A stretch of DNA of 23,208 nucleotides from the IMG/VR virus record IMGVR_UViG_3300032163_000108, positions 1 to 23,208 of that record; one strand, given 5' to 3'. Source of the DNA: a virus. A program made the position numbers and the translations under genes. Positions 697 through 23,208 of this stretch are shown in pieces. The number at the start of each line of letters is the position of its first letter. The first letter of the stretch is position 1. The notes under the pieces are model-generated. The model was not told the DNA's origin, did not search any database, and saw only the letters and a program-made list of their open reading frames with translations.

Positions 697-3006
697 CTAG
701 CTCCACCACTTCTGCATCTGATTCCACTGGTCGGGGGCGAATCTCACGACGTCACCCTGTGGGGGCTTAGCAGCCTTCTGATCTACGAACTCGTAAGCGG
801 ACACGAACTTGAGGTCGCTGGCCTGCCACGCACCTGATCCAGGCTTCGCCGACATCGTCCCCGTCTTGGTGTCGTAGGACATCTTCGATTTCTCCGCCTC
901 GGTCGCCGTAGCGATCTGGGCGCTTCCATCGGCGAGCATCTGCCCCGCTCTGTCGCCGTTCGCCTGGATCCACTGCCACAGCGGGTGTACCTCCCCATCC
1001 GCCGTCTGGACGTAGGCGTTGTAGACGTCTTTACCCTTGGCGATCGAGTCAAGGGCCGGAATGATCTTCCCACCCTTGGCCAGCCACTTCGTGTACCAAT
1101 CACTGACGGGGTTGGTACTTACCCCACCTGGACCAGTCAACGCACCTATCCCTAGCTGCTGGACGTAAGTACTGGCCATCTGTCCAGTGTCCCCGGACGC
1201 CAGGGCCTGGCTCACGACCCCCGCCCCACCACGGTACCCTCCGAACTTCGGGGCCATCGCCGTCAGCGCAGATTTGACGGTAGTTCCCTGGGCAGATTTC
1301 AATATCGCAGCTTCCTTCTGCTGGGCAGGCGTCCCACCCTTTCCCATTATGCTCTCGATGTACGCGGCGACCGTATTAGCGTCGGACGCATCAGCAGCAG
1401 AAAGCGCACCGATCCCGCTAGGGGCAGGGCCAAGGACCTGCATGGCCGCGTAGAATTGCGGATTGGCCATGATGGCGGCTTGATTCTGCCCAATCCTGAA
1501 GCCCATTCCTTGTAAGAAGTTCTTGACGACCTGCTCAGTCTGTCCTGGGATAGCCATCCCCTGCATCCCTGGCGGGACGTTACCTCCACCAGGAATTGCT
1601 CCAGCTAGATAACCCGGCATCTGGGTGAACCCTACGCCATTCATCTGAGCGACCCCAGCCTGGAGGAACAGGCTCGCCCCGAGGTCAGGTCCTGCATACG
1701 CGCGAAGCGCTGGGTTGACACTCCCGGCCCAGGCGGTCGCCTGGATGGCGGCTGCTGCCGAAGCACCAGTACCGCCCATGCCCATCCCGGTTAGAGTCTC
1801 GACGTTCATCTTATAGTTCTGGGCCATGATAGTAAGGCTGGCATTAGTATTCTTCGCAACGCCCTGCATCACGTCCATCGCGTTGGTGAGGTCCGTGACG
1901 CTACCTCCGGACTTCTCCACTACCTCCTGGAAGAGGTCTACCTGGTCGACGATGTCGCCCATCCCGCGCTTGGCCGCCTGGAAGAGGTAGTCGCGGGCCG
2001 TTCCATACATGCCACCTTTATTCTGGTCAGTGTACCCAGCCTGGAGGGTCTCCTCTTGGAGCTTCCCATAGTCGACACCAGGGTTGAGCAGGTTCATGAT
2101 GGTGGATCTAGCCCCAAGCATGGCTGATCCGCCACCGACCCCTCCGAATACCCCGGTTCCACCGGTCATCCCGGTATACCGCCGGGAGGAGGCGATCTGG
2201 GACGCGCCGAGCTTGTACAGGGCGGCTGCGGCGATGCCTACGGGGATGGCATAGGCAGCAGCTCCACCGAGTCCTCCAAGAAGTCCTGCTGCTTCTCCTC
2301 CTCCAGCTAGAGCTTCTCCGCTTTCACCTATTCCGGCAAGCCTACCGAAACCACCTCCTGTAGTAAGGACGTTCCCGCCTCCTTCACCCATCTGGGCCGC
2401 CCTGCCCGCTGACCAACCCCTCTCCCCATACCCCGCCTTGAATTTGCCAATGGCAGTAGAGATGGGCCCACCACCCTTAGTGAGTCTTGTGTGCTGGGCG
2501 ATCTGTTCCCACGCGGCTAGCCGGACGCTCCCTGGTAGGTGGGTCCTAGCGGCGGGAGGTGGAGCGAACCTAGGAACTTCTTCACCCCCGCCCCCAGGGA
2601 TCAACATCTGGCTGGGCTGGGTCATGCTCAGATTGGGATACTGCGGCGCTCCGTACTGGGGCATCATGCCCATACCGCCCATCATGCCGCCCATCCCAGG
2701 CATCATGCCCCCAGCGCCGATCTGGGCAAGCGTCATCCCAGCGCTGGCGATGGACTGGTAGGAGTTCTGGAGCCGCTGCGTCTGGGCGGCAAGAAGTTCG
2801 GTCTGACGGGTAGCTTGGGCGAGGCGCTGAGTGGTCGATCCGATGATGTCCCCGATGGCTTGGAACCTCTGCTCGGCCTCATCGAGGAGGTCGTTGGTCA
2901 CCTTCAAGTTCTGGAGCAGGTTCCCTAGGTCGGGTTCTACGCCCAGGTCAAGGGTATAGCGGTCGCCGCTTACATTATCGTTTCCTGGGCCGCCAACCTT
3001 AGGCAT
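697..3006 (-). CDS. Tape measure protein
   Basis: A 769-residue protein. Residues ~28-85 are a long amphipathic, probably coiled-coil helix rich in Gln, Leu and Ala. A Met/Gly-rich stretch follows (~97-120, repeating GMGG and GGMM), then Gly/Ala-rich low complexity (~205-250) and a hydrophobic segment (~240-265, AYAIPVGIAAAALYKLG). This mix of coiled coil, Gly/Ala-rich core and a membrane-like segment is typical of tape measure proteins, which set tail length and are injected with the DNA. It lies directly after two overlapping chaperone-like genes and before a baseplate gene, the usual position. The ATG abuts the preceding TAA (3007-3009) without a clear ribosome binding site, so coupling is likely. 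At the usual ~0.15 nm per residue it would give a tail of about 110-115 nm. No lytic domain was recognised. Confidence 0.75.
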   Translation of the reverse strand: MPKVGGPGNDNVSGDRYTLDLGVEPDLGNLLQNLKVTNDLLDEAEQRFQAIGDIIGSTTQRLAQATRQTELLAAQTQRLQNSYQSIASAGMTLAQIGAGGMMPGMGGMMGGMGMMPQYGAPQYPNLSMTQPSQMLIPGGGGEEVPRFAPPPAARTHLPGSVRLAAWEQIAQHTRLTKGGGPISTAIGKFKAGYGERGWSAGRAAQMGEGGGNVLTTGGGFGRLAGIGESGEALAGGGEAAGLLGGLGGAAAYAIPVGIAAAALYKLGASQIASSRRYTGMTGGTGVFGGVGGGSAMLGARSTIMNLLNPGVDYGKLQEETLQAGYTDQNKGGMYGTARDYLFQAAKRGMGDIVDQVDLFQEVVEKSGGSVTDLTNAMDVMQGVAKNTNASLTIMAQNYKMNVETLTGMGMGGTGASAAAAIQATAWAGSVNPALRAYAGPDLGASLFLQAGVAQMNGVGFTQMPGYLAGAIPGGGNVPPGMQGMAIPGQTEQVVKNFLQGMGFRIGQNQAAIMANPQFYAAMQVLGPAPSGIGALSAADASDANTVAAYIESIMGKGGTPAQQKEAAILKSAQGTTVKSALTAMAPKFGGYRGGAGVVSQALASGDTGQMASTYVQQLGIGALTGPGGVSTNPVSDWYTKWLAKGGKIIPALDSIAKGKDVYNAYVQTADGEVHPLWQWIQANGDRAGQMLADGSAQIATATEAEKSKMSYDTKTGTMSAKPGSGAWQASDLKFVSAYEFVDQKAAKPPQGDVVRFAPDQWNQMQKWWS

Positions 3007-5991: not shown

Positions 5992-8181
5992 TTATGCTGG
6001 GTTCTGGTTAATTGACTGGAATTCGATCGTACCCGACGAGGTGTCGATGCTGAACTGCACGTGGATGTAGTTCAGCGGTAGAGTTGGCTTGTAGGAGAAT
6101 CGGACCTCGATGAGGGTCGGATTCGAGGGTATCGGGAAGCGGAACTGCACGTCGGAGTAGTCGAAGATAAGTCCCTGGCGCCTCGCCTCTTCCAGGGCGC
6201 TACTGACGGCCGCCATCACCATGTTCGGAGTCTCCGAAGTCTGGGCGGAACCAACGATCGCGCCGCCGTCGAGGGTCTCCTGGATGAAGTCCCTCAGGCG
6301 GTCCCTGGCAGTAACCACGGAGATCTCCCTCGTGTAGACCGAGGTCATGTCGCTCGTGAGTCCGTGCTTGACGATAAGGACGCCCAGTCGATCCTGGAAA
6401 ACGACTAGGACGCCCTTTGACTGCATCGTGAAGATGTTGGCCTGCGTATCCTGGTCGTTGATCCCGACGAACCCGAAGACCTGCTTGCGGGTCAGTGGCT
6501 CCTGGGGAGCCTGTCCAGCCTGGAGCCCGGCCACGGCCACTGCGGCGAAGTAGCCAGGGATCACCAGCGGAGTCTGGGTCCCGTTGTCGAGTTTGAACTG
6601 CGCCGGGGCAACCACGGTGACTCGCTCGTCGTGTAGTTGCTGGGCGGTCGAGATGAAGTCGCTTGAGGTTGGCGCCGGGCTGCTCAGTCCGTCGAGGCTA
6701 ATGTACACCCTGCGCAGGAGCCCCTGCTCGGCCATGTTGTCAACGTGGGATTTAGCGTAGGAGACATCATCGGCTACGCCGCTGAGGACGGCAAGGACGT
6801 TGACCGACTGCTCGAACTCAAGCCTGGCGATGGCATCCTGGATCGGGTGGCTGTCGTTAGGGTTCGTCGCCACCAGGATTAGCTGGGTTGCACCATTGGC
6901 GAATGCTAGCTGGGCTGCGAGCGTCACCTCTGAGTTGATGGCGCTGCCGTCTGCGGTAAGTGACGCGCCATACTTGTCGCGGATCTGGGCGAGGTCGGTG
7001 AACAGAGCTGGGCTGAACTGGGCGGCGTCGGTAGCGCTGAACGTAACGCTGACGGCCGTACCGTCAGAAATCCTCGCGGTGTCCAGGACGCTCAAGGACA
7101 ATGTGTCGTCATTAGTCCCGTAGGTGGTATCGACGCCAGCCCCGATGCGGACCGCGTAGTCGACCCCACTATTCTCAAAGGCGTGTACACTACCGTGGGG
7201 CTTTGGGGTCGTTCCCGAGAATCCCCTAGTCACCGTAATGGTCTGGGGCGAGGAGCCCGAGACTGCCGTGACGTCCATGCGCTCGCCCTCGACGTCGATG
7301 TAGGTATCTACAAGGACCCCTCTGTTACTGACTACCCCGGTAACACCAGATACATCGGTAACCGAAAGGACTGCGACAGCGGTATCAGGATTGAAGAATT
7401 CTACGATGAAGCCCGTATCGGCGATTTCAGAATCAGACCCGTCTGCCTTTAGTACGTGTACATCTGTGATTGCGGCGAGGGCCTCAAGGGCAGCCTTAAT
7501 TCCGGCTTGAGTATAGTTGGTTCCGTTCGTGATAGTTGCGGTCGCTATCCCATCATAGGTCAGCGTAAAGTTATCCGTCCCGCTGAGTCCAGTGAGGGTG
7601 ACCACCTGGACACCGGTTGCCTCGACGACGTTGAAGACCGAAGAGGTGGAAGTGATGGGAGCTGCTAGAACAGCTACGTCGAGCGAAGGAGTATCCGAGT
7701 AGGACTCGGCGGTGTTGACTACCTGGTACTGCCCGTGGGCAGCGGCGTCGGTACCATTCTGGGCGCGGGTGATGGTCCAGCTCTGGCTAGTCCCCGCGCC
7801 ACCGGACGTCACGAGGATCTCCTCGTCGTCGATGAGGATGGTGAACTGACCTACGAGGTTGACCCCGTCGTAGGTCGTCACCGTGGCAGAGGAATCGTCA
7901 TCAGCGATGCCCGTGTCCAGGCTCCCGATGGCCCCAGATACGTACTGGGTACCCAGCAGCCGATCGATGACGTTGATGGTCTCCGGATCGGCCCCAAAGG
8001 TGACCAGGCGAGCCACGGAGGCGGACAGGAGGACGGCAGATTCGGTCACTAACCTGGAGGTCGGAGCGCTGCCCACGATGGCCAAGATGGTCGGTTCAAT
8101 AGCAGAGGTAAATACGACCGGGGGCGTAATCGCCTCAATAGTGACGCCGGGGTCGTTATAGGTACGGAAATCAGTGGGCAC
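5992..8181 (-). CDS. Tail sheath protein
   Basis: A 729-residue protein with GTG start at 8181. The N-terminus (YNDPGVTIE, PTILAIVGSAP) and the C-terminal third (RLRDFIQETLDGG, SSALEEARRQGLIFDYSDV, RFSYKPTLPLNYIHVQFSID) have the layout of contractile-tail sheath subunits, whose N- and C-terminal arms link neighbouring rings. The protein is longer than a minimal sheath because of insertions near the N-terminal third: residues ~108-155 and ~288-336 are two copies of a module with IDxE, TITR/TITVTR, GT and HG, and between them (~192-285) lies the beta-domain shared with two other virion proteins of this window. Such insertions are usually surface decorations. AAGGGG lies 11 bases before the GTG, a rather long spacing. 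This gene is the main evidence for a contractile tail. Confidence 0.82.
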   Translation of the reverse strand: MPTDFRTYNDPGVTIEAITPPVVFTSAIEPTILAIVGSAPTSRLVTESAVLLSASVARLVTFGADPETINVIDRLLGTQYVSGAIGSLDTGIADDDSSATVTTYDGVNLVGQFTILIDDEEILVTSGGAGTSQSWTITRAQNGTDAAAHGQYQVVNTAESYSDTPSLDVAVLAAPITSTSSVFNVVEATGVQVVTLTGLSGTDNFTLTYDGIATATITNGTNYTQAGIKAALEALAAITDVHVLKADGSDSEIADTGFIVEFFNPDTAVAVLSVTDVSGVTGVVSNRGVLVDTYIDVEGERMDVTAVSGSSPQTITVTRGFSGTTPKPHGSVHAFENSGVDYAVRIGAGVDTTYGTNDDTLSLSVLDTARISDGTAVSVTFSATDAAQFSPALFTDLAQIRDKYGASLTADGSAINSEVTLAAQLAFANGATQLILVATNPNDSHPIQDAIARLEFEQSVNVLAVLSGVADDVSYAKSHVDNMAEQGLLRRVYISLDGLSSPAPTSSDFISTAQQLHDERVTVVAPAQFKLDNGTQTPLVIPGYFAAVAVAGLQAGQAPQEPLTRKQVFGFVGINDQDTQANIFTMQSKGVLVVFQDRLGVLIVKHGLTSDMTSVYTREISVVTARDRLRDFIQETLDGGAIVGSAQTSETPNMVMAAVSSALEEARRQGLIFDYSDVQFRFPIPSNPTLIEVRFSYKPTLPLNYIHVQFSIDTSSGTIEFQSINQNPA

Positions 8182-8272: not shown

Positions 8273-9049
8273 TCAGTTCCCCCAATCCTGCCAGTCCCCT
8301 GCGAACGGAGGCACGCTGGTCTCCCCGGAGGCGTCGTCCCCACCCCGCCAAGAGGGCTCCGAGCCCCCTTCGTAGTCGATGTACTCGTAGACCTTGGCGC
8401 TCTTCAGGGGGACTAGGTCCTCGGTGTACTCGTCGGCGTAGAAGGTCCCCAGCATGGAGAACTGGACGGCGGCCTCGTAGCTGACCAGCTCTGGGTCCCA
8501 CGGCGTCCCCATCGAGATGGTGTCCCCCACGGCGTCCACGGACCCCTCCATGATGGTCAGCCCGACCAGGTCGTGGTTCTCCAGGGTGGTGTAGAAGTTG
8601 TTGGTGGCGCTGCGCTTGCGCCCCATCATGATGAGCTTCACTAGGTTGTCCCAGATGCGGTCTCGCTCTTCAGAAGACAGGGCGAAGATCTGGAGCATGC
8701 AGGTGGCTTCGAAGCGCCCCTGGCGGATGAGCTTGTAGCTGGGTGCATCCGGAGCCGGAGAGTCAGCAGTCGTGGAGTGGTCGATCGAGTCCGAGAAGTT
8801 GGCCGCGTCTACCACCTCGTCAGGCATGATGCCTGTCCACTCGACGACGGAAGGCCTGACCTGGACGAGGATGAATGGCCAGTCCTGGGACTCCTCCGGG
8901 TACTCGACCGTGATGCGCCGGGGGAGTGGCTTGTCGTTCAGGGTTAGCTGTGGGTTGTAGGTGTGGGCCTCCTGCCCGTCGTTCCCCCCCTGGTACCAGA
9001 CGCTGCGGAGGGATTCAACGATGGCCGACTTGATTGCGACCAAGAACAT
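8273..9049 (-). CDS. Neck protein, candidate tail terminator
   Basis: A 258-residue protein whose ATG at 9049 overlaps the previous stop by one base (TGATG). The frame is open further upstream inside the gp10-like gene, but that extension has unnatural composition, so the coupled ATG is preferred. Visible elements are ITVEYPEESQDWPFILVQVRP, trimmed here to a beta-strand pair around residues 47-68; GRFEATCMLQIFALSSEERD (~112-131), then WDNLVKLIMMG, and near the end FSMLGTFYADEY. The alternation of strands with the segment ALSSEERDRIWDNLV resembles tail terminator or connector proteins that cap the tail tube. It sits between the gp10-like gene and the sheath gene, the expected location. The C-terminal ~30 residues are Gly/Ser/Trp-rich and probably disordered. 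Confidence 0.5.
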   Translation of the reverse strand: MFLVAIKSAIVESLRSVWYQGGNDGQEAHTYNPQLTLNDKPLPRRITVEYPEESQDWPFILVQVRPSVVEWTGIMPDEVVDAANFSDSIDHSTTADSPAPDAPSYKLIRQGRFEATCMLQIFALSSEERDRIWDNLVKLIMMGRKRSATNNFYTTLENHDLVGLTIMEGSVDAVGDTISMGTPWDPELVSYEAAVQFSMLGTFYADEYTEDLVPLKSAKVYEYIDYEGGSEPSWRGGDDASGETSVPPFAGDWQDWGN

Positions 9050-10671
9050 CAGGCACCCACCTTCTTGAATCTCCCAAAGAATTTCCCAAGCTCTCCGCCA
9101 GAGTTCTGAAGGGCCTCTACCATGTCGTCTGACTTCATGCTCCGGAAGTACTCCTGGATGGCTTGTGTCAGGGCCGGTTGGATGAAGTTCATTGGCTCTA
9201 CCCCGGGGAAGCGCCAACGGATCTTCGAGTAGATGATCTTGCCGCCCTCGTCCCTGGTCAATATCTGAGGCTTGCCCACGTTCTTGGCGACCCTAAAGCT
9301 GATGGAGCCGTTCGGACCCCTAATTGGAATCGTATTATGAGTGAGCGTGTAGCCCGAAGTGACGTAGAGTCCATCCTCTGCCTCAACCGAAATGCACTGC
9401 ATGGGGACGCGGACTCCTTCGGCTACCACCGACTGGATATACTTCCTATCTGCCTTCCCTTTTCTGTTGGAAATGGTAGTTAGATAGCGATTCAATCTCT
9501 TTTCCAGAGGGGCTCTAAAGGGGATCAGATCTTGAGGAAGAGACAGAGTCACCCTCCAACAGGTACGGTCTTGTCTGAATCTTTTGCATGTGTTCACCGA
9601 TGCTCGGCCACCTAAGGACCTAGCAAGGTTTGCAACCCCATCGGCCAAATCTTTACTGGTCGAAGTGAATCCGACGTAAGGGACCCCGTTGAATAACTGA
9701 CAGTGTCCATCAGTATCTAACAACCCCTGGAGCACCATCAATCGATCTCGTATCGAAGCGAATAAATACTCTTCGGGAATGTGCTTCTCCCAAGCTCTTT
9801 TACCCCAGAGGTTTAGCTTTCGGAGAGCTTCTGAAAGTGGGTTACGTTGATTGTCCTTGCCGTGGTAACCTCCGGCGTTCCATCCTTTCTTCCCAGCGAC
9901 TATCCTCCATGAAACACTGCTGTTAGGGTAGGAATTCGACCTATACATGGAAAATTCTTCGGGAAGGACTTTCTTGACCTCATCTATCACTGCCTCTTCA
10001 CCTTCGCCCGCAGAAATAGCAGGACTAGCAGAGACGATACAGCCATCACCAAGAAGTACTCCCAAAAGGTATGGGTGGATGGGAAGCACTCCTCCTGGAG
10101 AAAACTCGATAGGGCCAGGAGTGTCAACGGACCACGTCTCGTGCATCATGCGCGACAGATACTCGGTAGAGACGGTCCTATGGTAGAGATTCCTTCTCCT
10201 GACAGTCCACAGATGATCTCCGCTACACCGTGCAAAAGTCCCATCGCTGAAATTAACAAGATACTGTTCAAGCTCTCCTTGTGGGAATACTCTAACTATC
10301 CGAGTCGCCTGCCCGCTAGAGCCGATGACTTCATCTCCCACTGCAAGCAGCCCCATAGGGACCCACCCACGTGGAGTTAGGATCGGCTCGTCGAGCCCCT
10401 GTGCCTTCCCCTCAAGTGCAGTCATCACGAAGGGCTGAATCCCCTGGTCGAGGTAGAGCAGGTGTATGGCCTGCGGAGGGATATGGATGCCGATCTGCCC
10501 GCGCTGCCACGTTGCCCTCACGAGGCGGCGGCTGTTGTTGGGGCCCACTGGGGCGGTCCTGCGGACTATCTCGGCAGCACGCAGGGATATCTGGTGTGCA
10601 ACATCAGGGGAGATGGGTATCTGCTTACCACGGTAAAACACCTCACCCGAACCTAACGCCCTGTTAGCCAA
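9049..10671 (-). CDS. HK97 gp10-like neck protein interrupted by an intein
   Basis: A 540-residue precursor. Residues 1-89 and 447-540 join into a protein of about 183 residues after splicing. The joined extein reads ...PFVMTALEGK-TIPIRGPNG..., and near its end VEPMNFIQPALTQAIQEYF resembles the PFxxPAL signature of HK97 gp10-like head-tail joining proteins. The first codon is TTG at 10671, overlapping the previous gene's TAA by 8 bases; an in-frame GTG at 10641 is an alternative start. Residues 90-446 are the intein described separately. Splicing must occur for this virion protein to fold, because the intein splits the globular core in the middle. The assignment to the gp10-like group is by pattern; the interruption is certain. 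Confidence 0.75.
   Translation of the reverse strand: MANRALGSGEVFYRGKQIPISPDVAHQISLRAAEIVRRTAPVGPNNSRRLVRATWQRGQIGIHIPPQAIHLLYLDQGIQPFVMTALEGKAQGLDEPILTPRGWVPMGLLAVGDEVIGSSGQATRIVRVFPQGELEQYLVNFSDGTFARCSGDHLWTVRRRNLYHRTVSTEYLSRMMHETWSVDTPGPIEFSPGGVLPIHPYLLGVLLGDGCIVSASPAISAGEGEEAVIDEVKKVLPEEFSMYRSNSYPNSSVSWRIVAGKKGWNAGGYHGKDNQRNPLSEALRKLNLWGKRAWEKHIPEEYLFASIRDRLMVLQGLLDTDGHCQLFNGVPYVGFTSTSKDLADGVANLARSLGGRASVNTCKRFRQDRTCWRVTLSLPQDLIPFRAPLEKRLNRYLTTISNRKGKADRKYIQSVVAEGVRVPMQCISVEAEDGLYVTSGYTLTHNTIPIRGPNGSISFRVAKNVGKPQILTRDEGGKIIYSKIRWRFPGVEPMNFIQPALTQAIQEYFRSMKSDDMVEALQNSGGELGKFFGRFKKVGA
9334..10404 (-). mobile_element. Class 3 intein with LAGLIDADG endonuclease
   Basis: A 357-residue intein, precursor residues 90-446. 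It starts with Ala (AQGLDEPILTPRGW) and not with Cys or Ser, and ends TLTHN before Thr447. The three residues that define class 3 inteins (WCT) are present: Trp155 in block B (GDHLW), Cys426 in block F (QCISV) and Thr444 in block G (LTHN). In this class the block F Cys makes the first branched intermediate. Two dodecapeptide motifs, YLLGVLLGDG (201-210, Asp209) and VLQGLLDTDG (313-322, Asp319/Asp321), keep their acidic residues, so the homing endonuclease looks intact. The N-terminal boundary before Ala90 is chosen because it restores the natural GK-TIPI extein; one or two residues of uncertainty remain. Confidence 0.85.
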
Positions 10672-12033: not shown

Positions 12034-12822
12034 TTAGGCTAAAGAGGACACCGCGATGCCCTTTAGGTAGCGGCGTAACTGCTTGCGGGACCACTCAACA
12101 TCAATAACAGGATCGTACTGATGTAGGAAAGAAGATAGATCCGACTCCCACACGACCTCGCAGGAGAAGCCAGCCTCCTTGTACCACTCGACTGTAGCTT
12201 CAGGATCGTCACCGAGGTGCCAATAGTCTCCGAAAAGTTCTAGGACCTGCTTCTTACCTCGCTTCTTAAAGTCGGGGCAGCGAGTAATGCCTTGGCCAAC
12301 AACAAAAAATCCCCCATCTCCGGTGTGGCGGTATCCTATGGACTCCAGGATCGGCGCGATGAGCATCTCCAATTCGGAGAATGTCCGACCACCCATCTTC
12401 CCCTCGGCGTAGGCCTTCTTCGTGGCCTGGCGCATCTTCTCCTGGTACGCGGGGTCCCGGGTAAGCTTCTGCATCGCAGCTTTACGGCGCTCTTGGCGTT
12501 CTGGGTCGGCCCAGTAGAGTTCGGTGCGGCGACCGATTGATTTCTCAATACGCTCCGGAGAGTACTCCTGATTTAGCAACCCTTCAATGCGCTTAGCACG
12601 CACTTCTGGGTCCCTCCATAGTTCGGCCTGCGCAGTGGACATCTTGGCTTTGGATTCACCCGAGAACTCGCGCCCCTCGGCTGCTGCACCAATCTTGGCC
12701 TTGGATTCATCGGTGTGCTTACTGCCTGTGTGGCCCTTGTTCTTGGCGCGATATTCTGGATCAGCCCATCGCGCCTTGGCGCGTTCGGATGCTGCTCTGT
12801 GCTGTTCTTCCGTCCACTTCAT
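12034..12822 (-). CDS. Free-standing homing endonuclease, NUMOD3-like plus VSR-like nuclease
   Basis: A 262-residue protein with an excellent ribosome binding site (GGAAGGAGG five bases before ATG). The N-terminal ~140 residues are basic, with NUMOD3-like stretches (GSKHTDESKAKIG, FSGESKAKMS) and four W/L-x-x-DPE-type repeats (RWADPEYRAK, LWRDPEVRAK, YWADPERQER, LTRDPAYQEK), likely DNA-binding helices. The C-terminal domain has SELE (Glu150), CPDF (Asp184), VLELFGDYWH (Glu195, Asp199, His202) and VVWESDL. This is the arrangement of VSR-fold nucleases, including EDxHD homing endonucleases from phages. It has no relation to its neighbours, both neck genes, and separates the connector gene from the neck gene that lacks a normal start. 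Free-standing homing enzymes are common in such late operons. No group I intron core fits in the ~100 flanking bases. Confidence 0.82.
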   Translation of the reverse strand: MKWTEEQHRAASERAKARWADPEYRAKNKGHTGSKHTDESKAKIGAAAEGREFSGESKAKMSTAQAELWRDPEVRAKRIEGLLNQEYSPERIEKSIGRRTELYWADPERQERRKAAMQKLTRDPAYQEKMRQATKKAYAEGKMGGRTFSELEMLIAPILESIGYRHTGDGGFFVVGQGITRCPDFKKRGKKQVLELFGDYWHLGDDPEATVEWYKEAGFSCEVVWESDLSSFLHQYDPVIDVEWSRKQLRRYLKGIAVSSLA

Positions 12823-16392: not shown

Positions 16393-17271
16393 CTAGGAGG
16401 GGTTAGACACTAGGAGTGAGAGGAAATCCTCGGGGGAATCGGCCTTGCGGAGGATCTCCAAGAAGGGCTGATCCACGAAGGTAATCCCAGGAACCTCGCG
16501 CTGGACCTGCCTACTACGGCCATCCATCCACCCCTTCACATCCACGATAACCGAATCGCCAACGATGAAGTCGGGGCGGTACTTTCCACCCGAGTACTCA
16601 TATGCAGGACCATCGTAGCGGCGGATCGGGACCTTGAGGAAACCGCAAGTGCCGTAGAAGAGGCTTTCCCACGTGGAATCCAGGATGATAGCATAATCTC
16701 CCTCATTCACCCCGATCTTCTTCTTGAGGATGCCTCGCTTGGCGCAGGCGTTGGAGCAGAACTTCTTGGCCGAGGGATAGTTGATGGGCACGGTCTTCTC
16801 CTCACCGCAGCCGAAACAAGTAAAGGTGACCTGGGAACCCTTCTTAAAAGTGGGCTTCCCGAACTTGTTCCTACAGGCGTCAGAGCAATACATCCTCCAG
16901 TAAGTTGATCCACCACGGGTAGTAGAACGTGGAATAGATTCACCGCAGGCACATGTAGGATCATGGCGCTGGCTCTCGTTGCGACACTTCGTGGAACAGA
17001 ACTTCTGTGCCACCTGCTTACGTATATAGGATTGGCCACACTGCTCACACGTGCGATGCCTGTCCGCCTCTCTTGCTGCATACATGCACTTGGGAGAACA
17101 GAATTTCTGCCTGGTGGGCTCCTTGGGTACAAACTCCTCCTTACATGAAGGGCAGATCTTAGTACGGCGTGCTGCCGCAAGTTGGCGGCAAGATTCAGAG
17201 TGATAGCGCTGGGCCTTGACTGCGTTGAATCCTACTCCACAGTGAGAACATGCCTTCATAACCATGTTCAT
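16393..17271 (-). CDS. Zinc-knuckle array plus PD-(D/E)XK nuclease, probable homing endonuclease
   Basis: A 292-residue protein inserted between the major capsid gene and the next head gene. Residues 1-180 carry about five Cys-rich knuckles of the type CxxC...(K/R)FCSxxC: Cys8/11 with 28, 40/43 with 58/62, 75/78 with 92/96, 107/109 with 129/133, 152/155 with 172/176. The C-terminal ~100 residues contain WESLFYG (Glu202), YRPDFIVGD (Asp234) and VIVDVKGW (Asp244, Lys246), the layout of a PD-(D/E)XK nuclease active site. The array likely reads a DNA target in the capsid gene region. The ribosome binding site is poor (GGTAAGAT before ATG 17271; ATG 17259 is possible). The mixture of fingers and this nuclease type is less common than HNH or GIY-YIG homing enzymes. 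Confidence 0.75.
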   Translation of the reverse strand: MNMVMKACSHCGVGFNAVKAQRYHSESCRQLAAARRTKICPSCKEEFVPKEPTRQKFCSPKCMYAAREADRHRTCEQCGQSYIRKQVAQKFCSTKCRNESQRHDPTCACGESIPRSTTRGGSTYWRMYCSDACRNKFGKPTFKKGSQVTFTCFGCGEEKTVPINYPSAKKFCSNACAKRGILKKKIGVNEGDYAIILDSTWESLFYGTCGFLKVPIRRYDGPAYEYSGGKYRPDFIVGDSVIVDVKGWMDGRSRQVQREVPGITFVDQPFLEILRKADSPEDFLSLLVSNPS

Positions 17272-17350: not shown

Positions 17351-17371
17351 TCATAGGCGATTAGCCTATGA
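17351..17371 (-). other. Perfect inverted repeat overlapping the capsid gene stop
   Basis: TCATAGGC and GCCTATGA form an eight-base-pair stem with a five-base loop, and the TAG of the major capsid gene lies inside one arm. No T run follows on the minus strand. A stabilising or attenuating hairpin after the most highly expressed gene is a natural reading; it may also mark the border of the nuclease gene downstream. Confidence 0.5.
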
Positions 17372-18388
17372 CTTTATGATCCTACCCAAGCCCCTGGGGT
17401 TCAAAACGGACATGGCGACAAGCTCGTCCATGACCCAACCCTTGTGGAACTTCTCGACGGTGTGGTTCTCCTCGACGTCCAGGGAGTACATGACCGGGAA
17501 CACGCCGAGGAACTCGGGTGCCGGGGTCAGGTACACGGTGCCAGCCGGGACTTGGATCGAGCGCTGGATCTGGAACTCACCGAAGGTGAGGATCTTCTCT
17601 CCAGCGACGACGCGGTCCTTGAAGCTGATACCAACCTGGTTCAGGTCCCACTTGTAGAGGTCCCTGTAGTCGGCGGGGTTCATCAGAAGCCTTGCAGCCT
17701 CCAACTCGTGGACGTCGATCTTCGCAACTAGGTCGTAGAAGCTGTCAGGGGTCAAGTAGCCCGAAAGCTCGTTGACCTCGTGGGCTCCAGTCGACACTAG
17801 GTGGTCGGCGTTGGTCCCGTAGCCGGTGATCGCAGTATCGAGGACGGTCACTAGTCGTGCGTCCTCCTGCTTCATGACGGACTGCTTGGACTCGTCCTGC
17901 GCGTACTCGACGATGTTCACGCGAAGGTACCAAAGATCTTCCTTCTTAACCTGCGGGAACGTCGCAATGCGGAACAAGCGAACCGGCGCCTTCTTGCCCT
18001 CGAACGGGGTAACTCGTACCTCGCCCTCGTTGCCGTGAAGGATGTACGCCTGGCCTAGATCGTCCAGGATGTCGTACTCAACCGGGATACCAGGGGTCAG
18101 CGGGTCCTCTAGGAGGACGTTGCGGACCATACCCTGGTAGCGGAGCTTGAGCTGGATCGGGCCGATCATACCCTGGCCCAGCCTCTTCATGTAGTTCTCC
18201 TTGTCCGAAAGGATGGCAGCTAGACGACGCTGCTTCTCACGGGTAGAGACTACGGTCGTTCCACGGGCTTCCTTGAGCTTCGCCTGAGCGCGAAGGATCT
18301 CGGCGACATAGTCGTCGGACTTCTTCGCAACACGAGGCAGAAGGTCAGCATTGTCCACCAGTGGAGCCGGGTTGGCTGCTCTAGTCAT
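17366..18388 (-). CDS. Major capsid protein
   Basis: A 340-residue protein with ATG at 18388 and GGAG 11 bases upstream. Residues ~20-75 are a charged helical arm (DDYVAEILRAQAKLKEARG, KQRRLAAILSD). The central part (LWYLRVNIVEYAQDESKQSV, ITGYGTNADH) and the C-terminal part (AARLLMNPADYRDLYKWD, GEFQIQRSIQVPAGTVYLTPAPEFLG in sense, shortened: a strand-turn-strand P-domain-like segment, then GVFPVMYSLDVEENH) match an HK97-fold capsid subunit. The size, the location after the protease and decoration genes and the strong start agree. It builds the icosahedral shell. It is followed by a hairpin and then by the inserted nuclease gene. Confidence 0.8.
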   Translation of the reverse strand: MTRAANPAPLVDNADLLPRVAKKSDDYVAEILRAQAKLKEARGTTVVSTREKQRRLAAILSDKENYMKRLGQGMIGPIQLKLRYQGMVRNVLLEDPLTPGIPVEYDILDDLGQAYILHGNEGEVRVTPFEGKKAPVRLFRIATFPQVKKEDLWYLRVNIVEYAQDESKQSVMKQEDARLVTVLDTAITGYGTNADHLVSTGAHEVNELSGYLTPDSFYDLVAKIDVHELEAARLLMNPADYRDLYKWDLNQVGISFKDRVVAGEKILTFGEFQIQRSIQVPAGTVYLTPAPEFLGVFPVMYSLDVEENHTVEKFHKGWVMDELVAMSVLNPRGLGRIIKS

Positions 18389-18935: not shown

Positions 18936-21900
18936 TTACAGGAATACAGCGTAATCGTCGGCCGGGTCATCCTCTTCTACCACTGAGCGTGAAACGCTAC
19001 CCAGCGACGGCATACGGATTGGACCCCTGTCCTCGGATGCAGCAACACGAATCCGCCTGCCCGCGACCTTGATCTCCTTGGCCTTGAACTCACGGGTCGC
19101 CTGGATGAAACCATCCAGGGTCGCGTCATCCATCTCTTCGAAGCGCGCAACGTCGGCGTACTTCTCGGCCTCGACTGAAAGTCCGAGGTCGATGCGCTCG
19201 TCGACGAAGTTGGCACAACGAAGAACCTTCGTCTTTGCAGCGGCGATGTGCTGGTCCTCACGGGCCTTCGCTTCTGCGACTCGGGTTGCTTCTTCTTCAA
19301 CGGCGGACTTCTTGTGCTTGCTCGAAAGCTCACACGGCCCGCAGTTGCAAGACCCGTCAGGGCACTCGCAACCGGCCTTGCACTTGGCTGCCTCCTTCGT
19401 AGAAGCCTCAACCTGTGGGTTGACTGGCTCATACGGACGGAGAGCGGCGTCGTTGAAGGGGTTTACCTGCTGTGGCAGGCGCTCACGGAAGGTATCAGCA
19501 ACCGGGAGACCAGTTCCCTGGCCTAGATTGATGACATCCGAGGTGTCTGCTAGTAGCAACTGCTCGGGCTGCTCGATGGCCTTCATCACGTCGATTGTCG
19601 CGTCGGCGCCTACGTCCACTGGGGGCGGGGCGTCGAGGTCACGCACGTCGGTCTGATATACGGCCTCAGCCTTCTTCTCGAACTCATCAGCACGCTCACG
19701 AAGCGCTTCCGCGCGCGCGATGAAGAATTCAGCCTTCCTATCCTGCTGGGACGCGGCCTTCCCTTGTCCCTGGCTGTTCAGCGCCTCGCCTGCCTGCGAT
19801 CCCGGCGGTGGGGTAGTCCCTGGGCCTTGCGGCTGGTTGACTACCGTCACGCCGGACTGGCCGACGGGGCCTGATACATCAGGAGCGTCCAGGTCCTGCA
19901 CGACTGCGGGCGCAGCGGGTGCTGGCTCCAGTGCAGGTTCGAATCCCTCAAGCGGGGTACCACCGGGGATGGCCTGGCCATACGGTGGGACCGAGTTTGC
20001 GGGGGACGTGTCCTGGCGGTAGGTCGGGTCCTGCGGTAGAGTAGCTTCCTTAGCGAAGCTATCAAATCTACTCACAACGTGGTCCTCCTTCCCGCTCTTC
20101 TTCTTATTGTCGTCCTTGGCTTTTTCTGGTGGGGCTTTCTTCTTGCCCTTATCTTCCGAGTCACCCTTGTCCTTGGGCTTGGACTTATCCTTCGAAGGCT
20201 TAGCCTCCTGATTGGAATCGTCCTCGCCTGACTCTGGTGCTCCGGGAGCGGGTGGGCCTTGGGCCCCACCTTCCTCCGATTCGTCCTGAGGGTTCCCATC
20301 TGGCTTCCCCATCGGCATAGCAAGGCCGAGTGGGTCAGTGTTTGGGTCGCCAAGCCCCTCAGGCGGAAGTTCGAATCCACAGTTCTTTGTCGTGATGTTC
20401 TGCACGACATAACTATGGTCTACCCCTACATTCAGATTGAAAACTGGCCCACAGTACGGGGTGAGTTCCAGTTCAGTTATCTGGGCTAGGGGCGTATCTT
20501 GGAAGTTCCAGGTACCACGCTGGCCCTTGTGCGTTCGCTCTAGGGTTGCTACGTGGCCAGTAACCCGATAAACGTCCTTCTTATCATCATGGACCTCTAT
20601 ATTCATCGTCGGTTGGAGTCCAAGCCTCCGACTGACCTCCATCACCTGGAGGGCGAGTACCTCAGATGTCTGCCCCAAGCGGGGATACTTAGTATCTCCA
20701 TCTCCATCGTGGATACCCTCGACGATGATCCGGAGTTTCTCGTTGGGCAGTGTTATCAGCTCGTTTGGGATGTGCTTATTTGCGGAACCACTCCCGAGCC
20801 ATACCGGGAACCATTCACCCAGCGTAGAACTATTCACTTGGACTATCGCACTATCTGAATCTAGATTGAATCGGAGCGAGGTGGTATACCCAGCAGCTTC
20901 GAAGAACGCCCGTACTCGCTCTTGGTATCCAACCTCATCCCGGTGTAGGGAAAAGGTAATCCCCCTAGTGGCGCCACAACCCTCTGCAAGGTAGAGCCCG
21001 ATGACCCAAAGGAATTCATCGGTCAGCTTGAAGGATGTTAGTCCGCGCCGCTCACGCTTCCCCTTGAAGGGCTCTGGGACCTCGACAACCTCAATATCCC
21101 TGACCGACCGATCCAGGGTCATCGAAACCCAATCTCCTACCTTCAAATCCTGGATAGGCTTCCAATCTAAGATGTGATTTCTATTGGCTTCGTTCAATAT
21201 CTCCCTAGGACACTCGGTACCCACTTCCTTGTTACAGAAGGAAGGGAGGCAACCCTGGTGGTCCGTCGTCGGAACCAAAACCCGCAGTGGGTGCTCCGGA
21301 GTAACCAGGACCGGGGAGGTCATAGTTGAAGTCCTCAGGCTGTAGACAAGGCCGTGGACCTCATGCTCGTAGACTTTCTGGACTTCATGGTATTGACCAG
21401 ATTCAGTGAGGACCTTTTCTCCTACCTCAATCGTAGAGATGGGGGCGTACCCACTCTTGGTCCTTACTAATGTATCTGGACCAAAGCAGTTGGTGCAGAC
21501 CATGCCGTTCCACTCTGATCCACAGTTGTGGACCACAAGGTTCTGAATGACATAAGTCGGATCGTTCTCTACCTCTAGGTTGTAAACTGGCCCAATGTAT
21601 GGCACTGCCTCGTTGCGGGTAATACGAGAGAGGGTTGTTCCCTCAAACTTCCACGTTCCACGCTTAGTTTCGTGAGTGCGCGAAAGAGTTGCGACGGTCG
21701 TACCATTGACTGTATAGACTGCCTTCTTGCCTTCTGGATATTGGGTTGAAATCGTAGGCGCTCCGCCGTTTCTAAGTGCCACTTCGGTTATTTGAAGCGC
21801 AAGAACTGGCGAGGTCTGTCCGATGAGATCACGGGATCTGGTCCCGTCTCCATCGAAGATTCCCTGGAGTACGATGTTGACCTTCTCTAGCGGAAGAGTC

Positions 21901-23208
21901 ATTAGTTCTTCGGGTATACTCTTGTTTGCACTGCCACTCCCTAGCCACTGTGGGAACCACCTAGCGAACACGGAGTTGTAGACCTCGACGGTTACTCCAT
22001 TTTCGCCACGTTCCCATGTGCGGGAGTTGATTCCGAACTGAGAGAAGAAGTCTATGATCCGCTGCTGGTAGGCCATTTCATCAGCGTGGAGTCCAAATGA
22101 TAGGGCGCGCTTCCCACCCGAACCTTCAGCGACGTAGAGACCCACAATCCAAAGGAAATCGTCATTAAGTGGAATCGTACTGGGCACCTTTGATGCATAG
22201 CGGAAGCAGTCTGCTGGGACTTCTACGCTCGATATTTCCTGCTCAACCGAGGGAAACCCCAGGGCGACGTATGTCTTCTCAAGGTCTTCTGTAGCCACCC
22301 ACTCTAGGTGGTGGTGCGTTCTTGCAGCATCCCTTTTCAGATTATGTCTACATGATCCAGAAGGAAGGCAGTCTAGGCGGCGCTCTTCTTGCTCCTTACC
22401 ACCTTCAACCTTACGGTGATACCCAACCATGGCTCGCAATGGATGCTCACCAGTCATCCGAATCGGACGTATCGTCGAAGTAGTCTCGATCTCCCTCAAG
22501 AGTCCCGAGAACTGATGTTCATAGACACTGAGGACCTTATTGAAGTCCCCTGATTCGGTCAGAACCTCATCGCCCACCTCAATGGTACTGATCGGCACGT
22601 GGCCGTCACGGGTACGGACGAGCGCTTCGGGGGTAAAGCACTGTGGGCAGTTCAGTTCGTCGCGCAGGGTGTCTACCTCCTGCGGCAGGCTCATCAGGAC
22701 CTTGTCGGCCGTGAACTCAAACTTGCAGTCAAGGCAATTGGCCCCGGTCTTTGAAATCGATATGTCCGTACTACCGCAGGCCTGGCAGAAGTCCGAGGTC
22801 CTGATGGAGGCGACCTTCACCAAGGAGGTCCCCAGGCGCTCGCTGTAGGCGGCGATGGTCTCGCGGCTGCGGCGGAGGTGGGCGAGGGAGCGGTTCCCGG
22901 CTGATGCGAGCATCACGTCAGAGATGAGCGCCGACTCGTCGGCTGGATCGAAGACGAACGAGATCTCGAAGAACGAGACGCCGTAGCAGTCCTCGTAGCA
23001 TAGCTTCTTGATGCGGCTGCCGGTCTTCTGGTCGAGGGTCTCGACTACCCGGCCCTTCATCTGGGGGATATGGGTGCAGTACTGGAGTACGTCGTGCGCC
23101 TTGTTGCTACAGACGGAGCAGATGGTGTACTCGACGTCAGCACCCATGGAGACCGAGTCAATGTCGCCATCTATGATGGCCTGGGCGAGCTTGGGGAAAG
23201 CCTGGGCA
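18936..23208 (-). CDS. Prohead protease/scaffold-like protein with two inteins, 5' end outside window
   Basis: The frame enters from beyond 23208; the ATG at 23147 is internal. Numbering from that ATG there are 1403 residues, of which 741 are intein. After splicing at least 682 residues remain. The N-terminal extein (DGDIDSVSMGADVEYTICSVC, shortened: DSVSMG, CSVC...YCTHI, and GVSFFEISFVFDPADESALI) resembles U35/prohead protease-like maturation proteins, whose FxEISLVxxPAxxxA strand is characteristic. Two zinc ribbons follow: Cys121/124-138/141 and Cys167/170-551/554. The C-extein has a charged Lys/Asp/Glu linker (~950-1022), a helical segment (~1130-1165), a six-Cys cluster (1256-1272) and a scaffold-like C-terminus. 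It probably combines maturation protease and scaffold; catalytic residues cannot be assigned because the N-terminus is missing. Confidence 0.65.
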   Translation of the reverse strand, partial: AQAFPKLAQAIIDGDIDSVSMGADVEYTICSVCSNKAHDVLQYCTHIPQMKGRVVETLDQKTGSRIKKLCYEDCYGVSFFEISFVFDPADESALISDVMLASAGNRSLAHLRRSRETIAAYSERLGTSLVKVASIRTSDFCQACGSTDISISKTGANCLDCKFEFTADKVLMSLPQEVDTLRDELNCPQCFTPEALVRTRDGHVPISTIEVGDEVLTESGDFNKVLSVYEHQFSGLLREIETTSTIRPIRMTGEHPLRAMVGYHRKVEGGKEQEERRLDCLPSGSCRHNLKRDAARTHHHLEWVATEDLEKTYVALGFPSVEQEISSVEVPADCFRYASKVPSTIPLNDDFLWIVGLYVAEGSGGKRALSFGLHADEMAYQQRIIDFFSQFGINSRTWERGENGVTVEVYNSVFARWFPQWLGSGSANKSIPEELMTLPLEKVNIVLQGIFDGDGTRSRDLIGQTSPVLALQITEVALRNGGAPTISTQYPEGKKAVYTVNGTTVATLSRTHETKRGTWKFEGTTLSRITRNEAVPYIGPVYNLEVENDPTYVIQNLVVHNCGSEWNGMVCTNCFGPDTLVRTKSGYAPISTIEVGEKVLTESGQYHEVQKVYEHEVHGLVYSLRTSTMTSPVLVTPEHPLRVLVPTTDHQGCLPSFCNKEVGTECPREILNEANRNHILDWKPIQDLKVGDWVSMTLDRSVRDIEVVEVPEPFKGKRERRGLTSFKLTDEFLWVIGLYLAEGCGATRGITFSLHRDEVGYQERVRAFFEAAGYTTSLRFNLDSDSAIVQVNSSTLGEWFPVWLGSGSANKHIPNELITLPNEKLRIIVEGIHDGDGDTKYPRLGQTSEVLALQVMEVSRRLGLQPTMNIEVHDDKKDVYRVTGHVATLERTHKGQRGTWNFQDTPLAQITELELTPYCGPVFNLNVGVDHSYVVQNITTKNCGFELPPEGLGDPNTDPLGLAMPMGKPDGNPQDESEEGGAQGPPAPGAPESGEDDSNQEAKPSKDKSKPKDKGDSEDKGKKKAPPEKAKDDNKKKSGKEDHVVSRFDSFAKEATLPQDPTYRQDTSPANSVPPYGQAIPGGTPLEGFEPALEPAPAAPAVVQDLDAPDVSGPVGQSGVTVVNQPQGPGTTPPPGSQAGEALNSQGQGKAASQQDRKAEFFIARAEALRERADEFEKKAEAVYQTDVRDLDAPPPVDVGADATIDVMKAIEQPEQLLLADTSDVINLGQGTGLPVADTFRERLPQQVNPFNDAALRPYEPVNPQVEASTKEAAKCKAGCECPDGSCNCGPCELSSKHKKSAVEEEATRVAEAKAREDQHIAAAKTKVLRCANFVDERIDLGLSVEAEKYADVARFEEMDDATLDGFIQATREFKAKEIKVAGRRIRVAASEDRGPIRMPSLGSVSRSVVEEDDPADDYAVFL
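20382..21488 (-). mobile_element. Intein 2 in the protease/scaffold protein
   Basis: A 369-residue intein (precursor residues 554-922), inserted CTN^CGFE. It starts CFGPDTLVRTKSGYAPISTIEVG, trimmed to the block A pattern Cys-x-x-x-T-L-V, has block B PEHPLR, and ends VDHSYVVQNITTKN before Cys923. LAGLIDADG-type motifs WVIGLYLAEG (714-723, Glu722) and VEGIHDGDG (809-817) are intact. Block F His911 is present, but the penultimate residue is Lys921 in place of the usual His. It is a paralogue of intein 1, sharing ISTIEVG, VLTESG, VYEHE/Q and WLGSGSANK. Confidence 0.9.
21525..22640 (-). mobile_element. Intein 1 in the protease/scaffold protein
   Basis: A 372-residue intein (precursor residues 170-541), inserted CPQ^CGSE. 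It begins with Cys170 (CFTPEALVRT), has block B TGEHPLR, and ends NLVVHN before Cys542, so both splice junctions have a nucleophile. The endonuclease motifs WIVGLYVAEG (333-342, Glu341) and LQGIFDGDG (427-435, Asp434) look functional. Block F reads VYNLEVENDPTY: the His commonly found there is replaced by Pro530, while the penultimate His540 is kept. Its extein downstream is only 12 residues long before intein 2 begins. Confidence 0.9.

Follow-up and report, generated by a model that had tools for sequence, protein, structure and literature searches.

A full-length class 3 intein with a LAGLIDADG domain in a probable HK97 gp10-like gene of an actinobacterial-type myophage

Introduction

What distinguishes class 3 inteins is a triad of Trp at B:12, Cys at F:4 and Thr at G:5 in an intein whose position 1 has no nucleophile (PMC3196547, PMC5222942, PMC5050341). 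The solved examples nearest to the intein described here are the DnaB-1 inteins of M. smegmatis (6bs8) and M. chimaera (6rix/6riy), which are mini-inteins without an endonuclease and lie inside a replicative helicase. Full-length class 3 inteins with a LAGLIDADG domain occur at the P-loop GK/(T,S) sites of phage helicases and terminases, as in gp175 of Mycobacterium phage Alice and the MetMV terminase. The reported hosts of mycobacteriophage inteins are terminases and proteins that act in DNA modification or nucleotide metabolism (PMC5050341).

Tail-completion proteins are a different kind of host. A study of the 80alpha neck treats its gp51, lambda gpZ, SPP1 gp16.1 and HK97 gp10 as equivalent members of this group (the Ne1 family; PMC11661146). 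Loss of the group's protein lowers infectivity in lambda (gpZ) and blocks head-tail joining in P2 (gpS) (PMC4362835). In the literature searched, which was covered in part, we did not find an intein reported in a tail-completion protein.

Results

The window, the whole stretch of DNA analyzed here, is an entire IMG/VR virus record of 23,208 bases. It is a fragment, and its genes are read leftward on the minus strand in the order head to tail (Table 1). The ORF of interest lies between the capsid and sheath genes. Its listed start is a TTG codon and its true start is uncertain, with homologues starting near residue 11-17. From 10404 to 9334 the middle of the ORF reads AQGLDEPILTPRGW...CSGDHLW...LLGVLLGDG...LQGLLDTDG...QCISVEAEDGLYVTSGYTLTHN, followed by TIPIRG. 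We conclude with high confidence that ORF 10671-9049 carries a full-length class 3 intein with a LAGLIDADG endonuclease domain, and, with moderate support, that its host is a Ne1/HK97 gp10-like protein of an actinobacterial-type myophage.

Table 1. Features of the window and of the interrupted ORF (positions are those of the whole stretch; intein residues are numbered from A1).
Feature	Position	Strand	Remarks
Long ORF at tape-measure position	697-3006	-	position only; without family match
Tail sheath gene	5992-8181	-	
Host gene, probable HK97 gp10-like tail-completion/neck protein split by intein	9049..10671	-	540 codons; phrog_2819
C-extein	9052..9333	-	starts T(+1)IPIRGPNG
Thr+1 (ORF Thr447)	9331-9333	-	predicted C-extein nucleophile
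Class 3 intein	9334..10404	-	357 residues, A1 to N357
Thr355, T G:5 (ORF T444)	9340-9342	-	followed by His356, Asn357
Cys337, C F:4 (ORF C426)	9394-9396	-	predicted class 3 initiating nucleophile
Second LAGLIDADG motif, LQGLLDTDG (D232)	9706..9732	-	D in 153/154 relatives
First LAGLIDADG motif, LLGVLLGDG (D120)	10042..10068	-	D in 149/154 relatives
Trp66, W B:12 of WCT triad (ORF W155)	10207-10209	-	two residues past block B His64
Block B His64	10213-10215	-	codon
N-extein	10405..10671	-	ends ...PFVMTALEGK; homologues run on uninterrupted as EGK/TVPI
Homing-endonuclease-like gene, free-standing	12034-12822	-	NUMOD3 motif
Homing-endonuclease-like gene, free-standing	16393-17271	-	several Cys clusters, then nuclease-like end; no Pfam match
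Major capsid protein gene	17366-18388	-	phrog_2522
ORF with tandem inteins	18936-23147	-	open to record end, 20 further codons stop to stop
Two tandem class 1-type inteins	20382-21488 and 21525-22640	-	Cys1, +1 Cys; 43% identical, 12 residues apart

The ends of the intein were located by comparison with homologues that lack it. In gp40 of Rhodococcus phage Finch, Gordonia phages and gp109 of Rhodococcus phage E3, as well as in Mycobacterium phages Phrappuccino (gp71), Alice (gp118) and Phabba, the protein runs unbroken through the site as LEGK/TVPI, EGRTIP or near variants, and 18 viral-contig homologues without the insert have the same uninterrupted junction. The junction is therefore Lys89/Ala1 and Asn357/Thr+1, so that the insertion site, ...LEGK/TIPI..., lies between Lys89 and Thr447 of the host ORF, with codons 10402-10404 for A1 and 9334-9336 for N357. 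The host alignment comprised nine homologues, with the intein excised from the two carrying one; by alignment both exteins are intact, and homologues match over their whole length. Empty gp10 sites that retain GK have 17 of 24 central bases in common with the window site. Viral-contig scans with the extein alone or the intein alone as single-protein query returned no matches, and the genome-contig scan gave one weak, unrelated match, so that a prophage allele was not found there. The unbroken homologues, the 540 open codons, the LAGLIDADG_3 match and the matches to terminase and helicase inteins together place the intein beyond chance.

The sequence-only reading had assigned the intein to class 3 from a WCT triad of Trp155, Cys426 and Thr444, an Ala at the N-terminus and a Thr at +1. 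Each of these residues is where that reading put it, to the exact coordinate, and the triad, the HN pair and the +1 Thr are spaced as class 3 requires. Position 1 is an Ala and carries no Ser, Thr or Cys nucleophile, the boundary being set both by the intein-free EGK/TVPI homologues and by alignment to residue 1 of 6bs8. The alignment that this reading had named as able to refute it was run against 6bs8 and 6rix/6riy: by profile and by structure, position 1 lacks a nucleophile and Cys426 occupies F:4. When a nine-sequence intein profile was searched against the PDB, its best matches were two DnaB-1 inteins of class 3, 6bs8 and 6rix, with A1 falling on A1, HLW on HQW, QCI on RCV and THN on THN. 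The solved class 3 inteins align with the window intein from residue 1 to the end; the splicing domains are 31-35% identical at an rmsd of 1.4-1.8 Å, with the same catalytic residues and ends. Phage terminase and helicase intein regions also match, at 4.9e-25 (profile) and < 1e-50 (tblastn). Residues A1, G13, H64, W66, D120, K207, D232, C337, T355, H356 and N357 are invariant in nine aligned inteins. Across a set of 154 distinct relatives, drawn from IMG/VR and from phages, 149 have W66, 153 have C337 and all 154 have the T355/H356/N357 end, and Ala1 recurs in 92.

The claim of an intact LAGLIDADG domain was equally sound: both motifs are present, and the region matches Pfam LAGLIDADG_3 (PF14528) at 2.4e-10. 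The block D Lys (K207) is found in 153/154 relatives. With the two LAGLIDADG acids and this Lys all in place, the intein is a putative homing endonuclease. Host and intein were modelled separately, because aligning the complete precursor to homologues that lack the insert gave a misalignment. The intein model, built with nine-residue extein flanks, reached a pLDDT of 89.4 and a pTM of 0.90. It superposed on class 3 6bs8_C with Z 20.0 and an rmsd of 1.4 Å over 123 residues (35% identity), placing model residue 10 (A1) on residue 1 and 366 (N357) on 139, and it matched PI-SceI over its whole length with Z 28.8.

The host gene belongs to phrog_2819, a family of unknown function that includes Bxz1/Finch-like myophage proteins. 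All 18 of its homologues fall in this family, and three of the 18 also give weak matches to phrog_5, described as tail completion or Neck1 (best value 0.0017). In the window and in the homologues the tail sheath gene comes two genes after this one, which has the capsid-side genes on its other side. The model of an intein-free homologue is of middling confidence (pLDDT 79.5); it opens with a long helix and also contains hairpins and C-terminal helices. Among solved structures the model matched the SaPI1 neck best, at chain P (Z 8.2 over 93 residues, rmsd 4.4; next chain 2.9), and several of its BFVD matches, at E about 0.02, are named HK97-gp10 putative tail component. A Foldseek search of the PDB with the host model gave no significant match, and a sequence search of the PDB with the host gave nothing meaningful. 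The earlier call of an HK97 gp10-like neck protein thus stands with moderate support, from the weak phrog_5 score, the SaPI1 neck chain and the BFVD names: the predicted fold resembles that of the HK97 gp10/SPP1 gp16.1 tail-completion family, with which the host has in common head-tail gene position, size, predicted fold and a weak profile match. Given the lambda and P2 loss phenotypes, removal of the intein is probably required for the host protein to function.

The best phage match to the whole ORF was LE23_82 (QXJ36684.1) of Eggerthella phage LE2-3, which is annotated as a 'PhoH family protein' and lies two genes before the LE2-3 tail sheath. The alignment spans the two exteins as well as the intein (35% identity), and the GK/T junction is identical; the LE23_82 intein has the class 3 residues A1, W, C and THN, and on either side of the intein the protein scores as gp10-like. 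A Pfam search of LE23_82 found LAGLIDADG_3 only and no PhoH domain. Judged by these alignments, LE23_82 is another allele of this gene, interrupted by a class 3 intein at exactly the same position and misannotated as PhoH; its database record describes neither an intein nor a neck protein. No third allele was among the matches listed from viral contigs, phages, plasmids and genome contigs. In a tree of class 3 relatives only, the window and LE2-3 inteins pair at 86/73, a grouping that is not decisive between one invasion of the gp10 site and two. A second LE2-3 gene, LE23_71 (L200:2117-5230), which bears the annotation 'tRNA synthetase', is likely homologous to the ORF of 1403 residues in the window; it has a class 1-type intein of its own at a different Cys (LN/C...HN/CETTTCSVC). 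With LE23_71 and LE23_82 both interrupted, the same pair of genes contains inteins in the two phages.

Related inteins occur in varied hosts. In 110 of the 156 distinct relatives (~70%) the residues just before the intein are GK, mostly in ATPase P-loops, and the +1 residue in these 156 is Thr in 101, Ser in 52 and Cys in 3. The full-length inteins of Alice gp175 and the MetMV terminase are 35-43% identical to that of the window and are preceded by the same GK/ motif; their hosts are ATPases, whereas the gp10 site is a GK/T without the remainder of a Walker A motif. Inteins of the same family also occupy another virion structural host, the portal protein, in three IMG/VR loci (L101, L132, L091). 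Their sites differ from GK/T, being NDA/P...T in L101 and NAA/P...T in L132. These portal hosts match Pfam Phage_portal (2.9e-19 and 1.1e-11) and phrog_104 (8.4e-114), and their inteins are class 3-like. The gene annotated as RNA polymerase beta subunit in Pseudomonas phage EL (L013:1467-4577) has a class 3-type intein at AAGK/SL, which is not Walker A-like, and a DNA polymerase A (L168) has one at VEGK/S, also not P-loop-like. For Caudovirales GX15bay QBQ74860 (L014), annotated PhoH, family searches match its class 3 intein only, and the label is apparently another misannotation driven by the intein.

Discussion

The intein adds one member to a known family, in a host protein for which the literature searched reports no intein. 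Tail-completion proteins, probably important for infectivity, are added to the hosts of class 3 inteins, and with the portal examples these hosts extend past DNA enzymes. Eggerthella phage LE2-3 supplies a second case, in a named phage where splicing is testable. Two annotations are affected: 'PhoH' is corrected to a neck protein, and 'tRNA synthetase' is probably an error for an LE2-3 gene with an intein-like insert. The sequence-only reading had regarded a small structural host as unusual; it is uncommon, but not unique, as the portal inteins attest. Its description of class 3 inteins as rare and mostly confined to replication enzymes and terminases was overstated, as at least 589 relatives were confirmed in one scan and they are plentiful in phages. 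Class 3 is not the rarest class either: class 2 has KlbA as its one known host (PMC3196547).

Several other readings of the locus were weighed. One is that the element is a class 1 or class 2 intein that lacks the N-terminal nucleophile and whose block F Cys is incidental. An Ala at position 1 can also occur in class 2 inteins and in class 1 inteins that have decayed, so Ala1 by itself fits this reading. The full WCT triad does not, nor do the nearest solved structures by sequence, which are class 3, nor the retention of C337 and W66 in nearly all of the 154 relatives, with Ala1 shared by 92; class 2, moreover, is known from KlbA alone (PMC3196547). We give this reading next to no credence. 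That the element is a class 3 intein that no longer splices, leaving the neck gene a pseudogene, is very improbable. There is one documented class 3 pseudogene, Arsp-FB24 Arth_1007 (PMC3196547), but that relic lacks the Cys F:4 that the window intein retains; here both exteins are intact, the catalytic residues for splicing and endonuclease are complete, and the GC3 of the host gene is still high.

A functional class 3 intein might instead be a regulatory one, its conditional splicing timing virion completion to the benefit of the phage. Conditional splicing, in response to stress or zinc, is reported for mycobacterial DnaB inteins (PMC6195587, PMC7360933), and the loss of gpZ from lambda or gpS from P2 impairs infectivity or head-tail joining (PMC4362835). 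Nearly all homologues are intein-free, which argues against a general need, and the sporadic distribution fits a selfish element; we consider regulation very unlikely.

We therefore return to a class 3 intein with a homing endonuclease, and its residues suggest how it would most likely act. Cys337 (F:4), aided by Trp66, His64 and Thr355, would attack the Lys-Ala1 bond; the N-extein would then transfer to Thr+1, and cyclization of Asn357 would free an intact neck protein of roughly 183 residues. In co-infecting phages, the endonuclease would cut those copies of the site that lack the intein, and repair would copy the intein in.

A descent from inteins that occupy GK/(T,S) sites in the P-loops of ATPases is plausible but weakly supported; the shared dipeptide hints at a jump from such a P-loop onto the gp10 GK/T. 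The GK/T site was dropped as proof of a P-loop origin: GK/(S,T,C) occurs once among the 16 S/T/C positions of the extein, so that, given the need for a +1 nucleophile, such a site would be hit by chance about 1 time in 16. In base composition the intein is more AT-rich than the host, with GC 0.509 and GC3 0.513 against extein GC3 of 0.719 and 0.755. GK/(T,S) is suggested as a simple rule for how this lineage reaches new genes. As a tentative proposal, which we hold to be possible rather than probable, class 3 inteins may move beyond a single gene to any GK/(T,S) stretch, the endonuclease and the splicing domain jointly tolerating a Walker-A-like junction; the tail-completion gene would be an ectopic landing outside ATPases, after which the intein would have been retained and passed on between actinobacterial myophages as an allele specific to that site.

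In total, five mobile elements are probably present in the 23 kb fragment (Table 1). The co-occurrence of two Cys-type inteins, also pointed out from the sequence, is real: they are 372 and 369 residues long and match the class 3 intein in short, weak stretches only. Their tandem arrangement and mutual identity suggest that one intein spread to a neighboring Cys site. The listed ATG of the ORF that contains them is probably not the true start, since the ORF is open beyond it and LE23_71 is longer at its start. The site of the pair is a zinc-ribbon-like stretch, NCPQ/CGSEWNGMVCTN/CGFEL, and the second intein ends in TKN, not HN.
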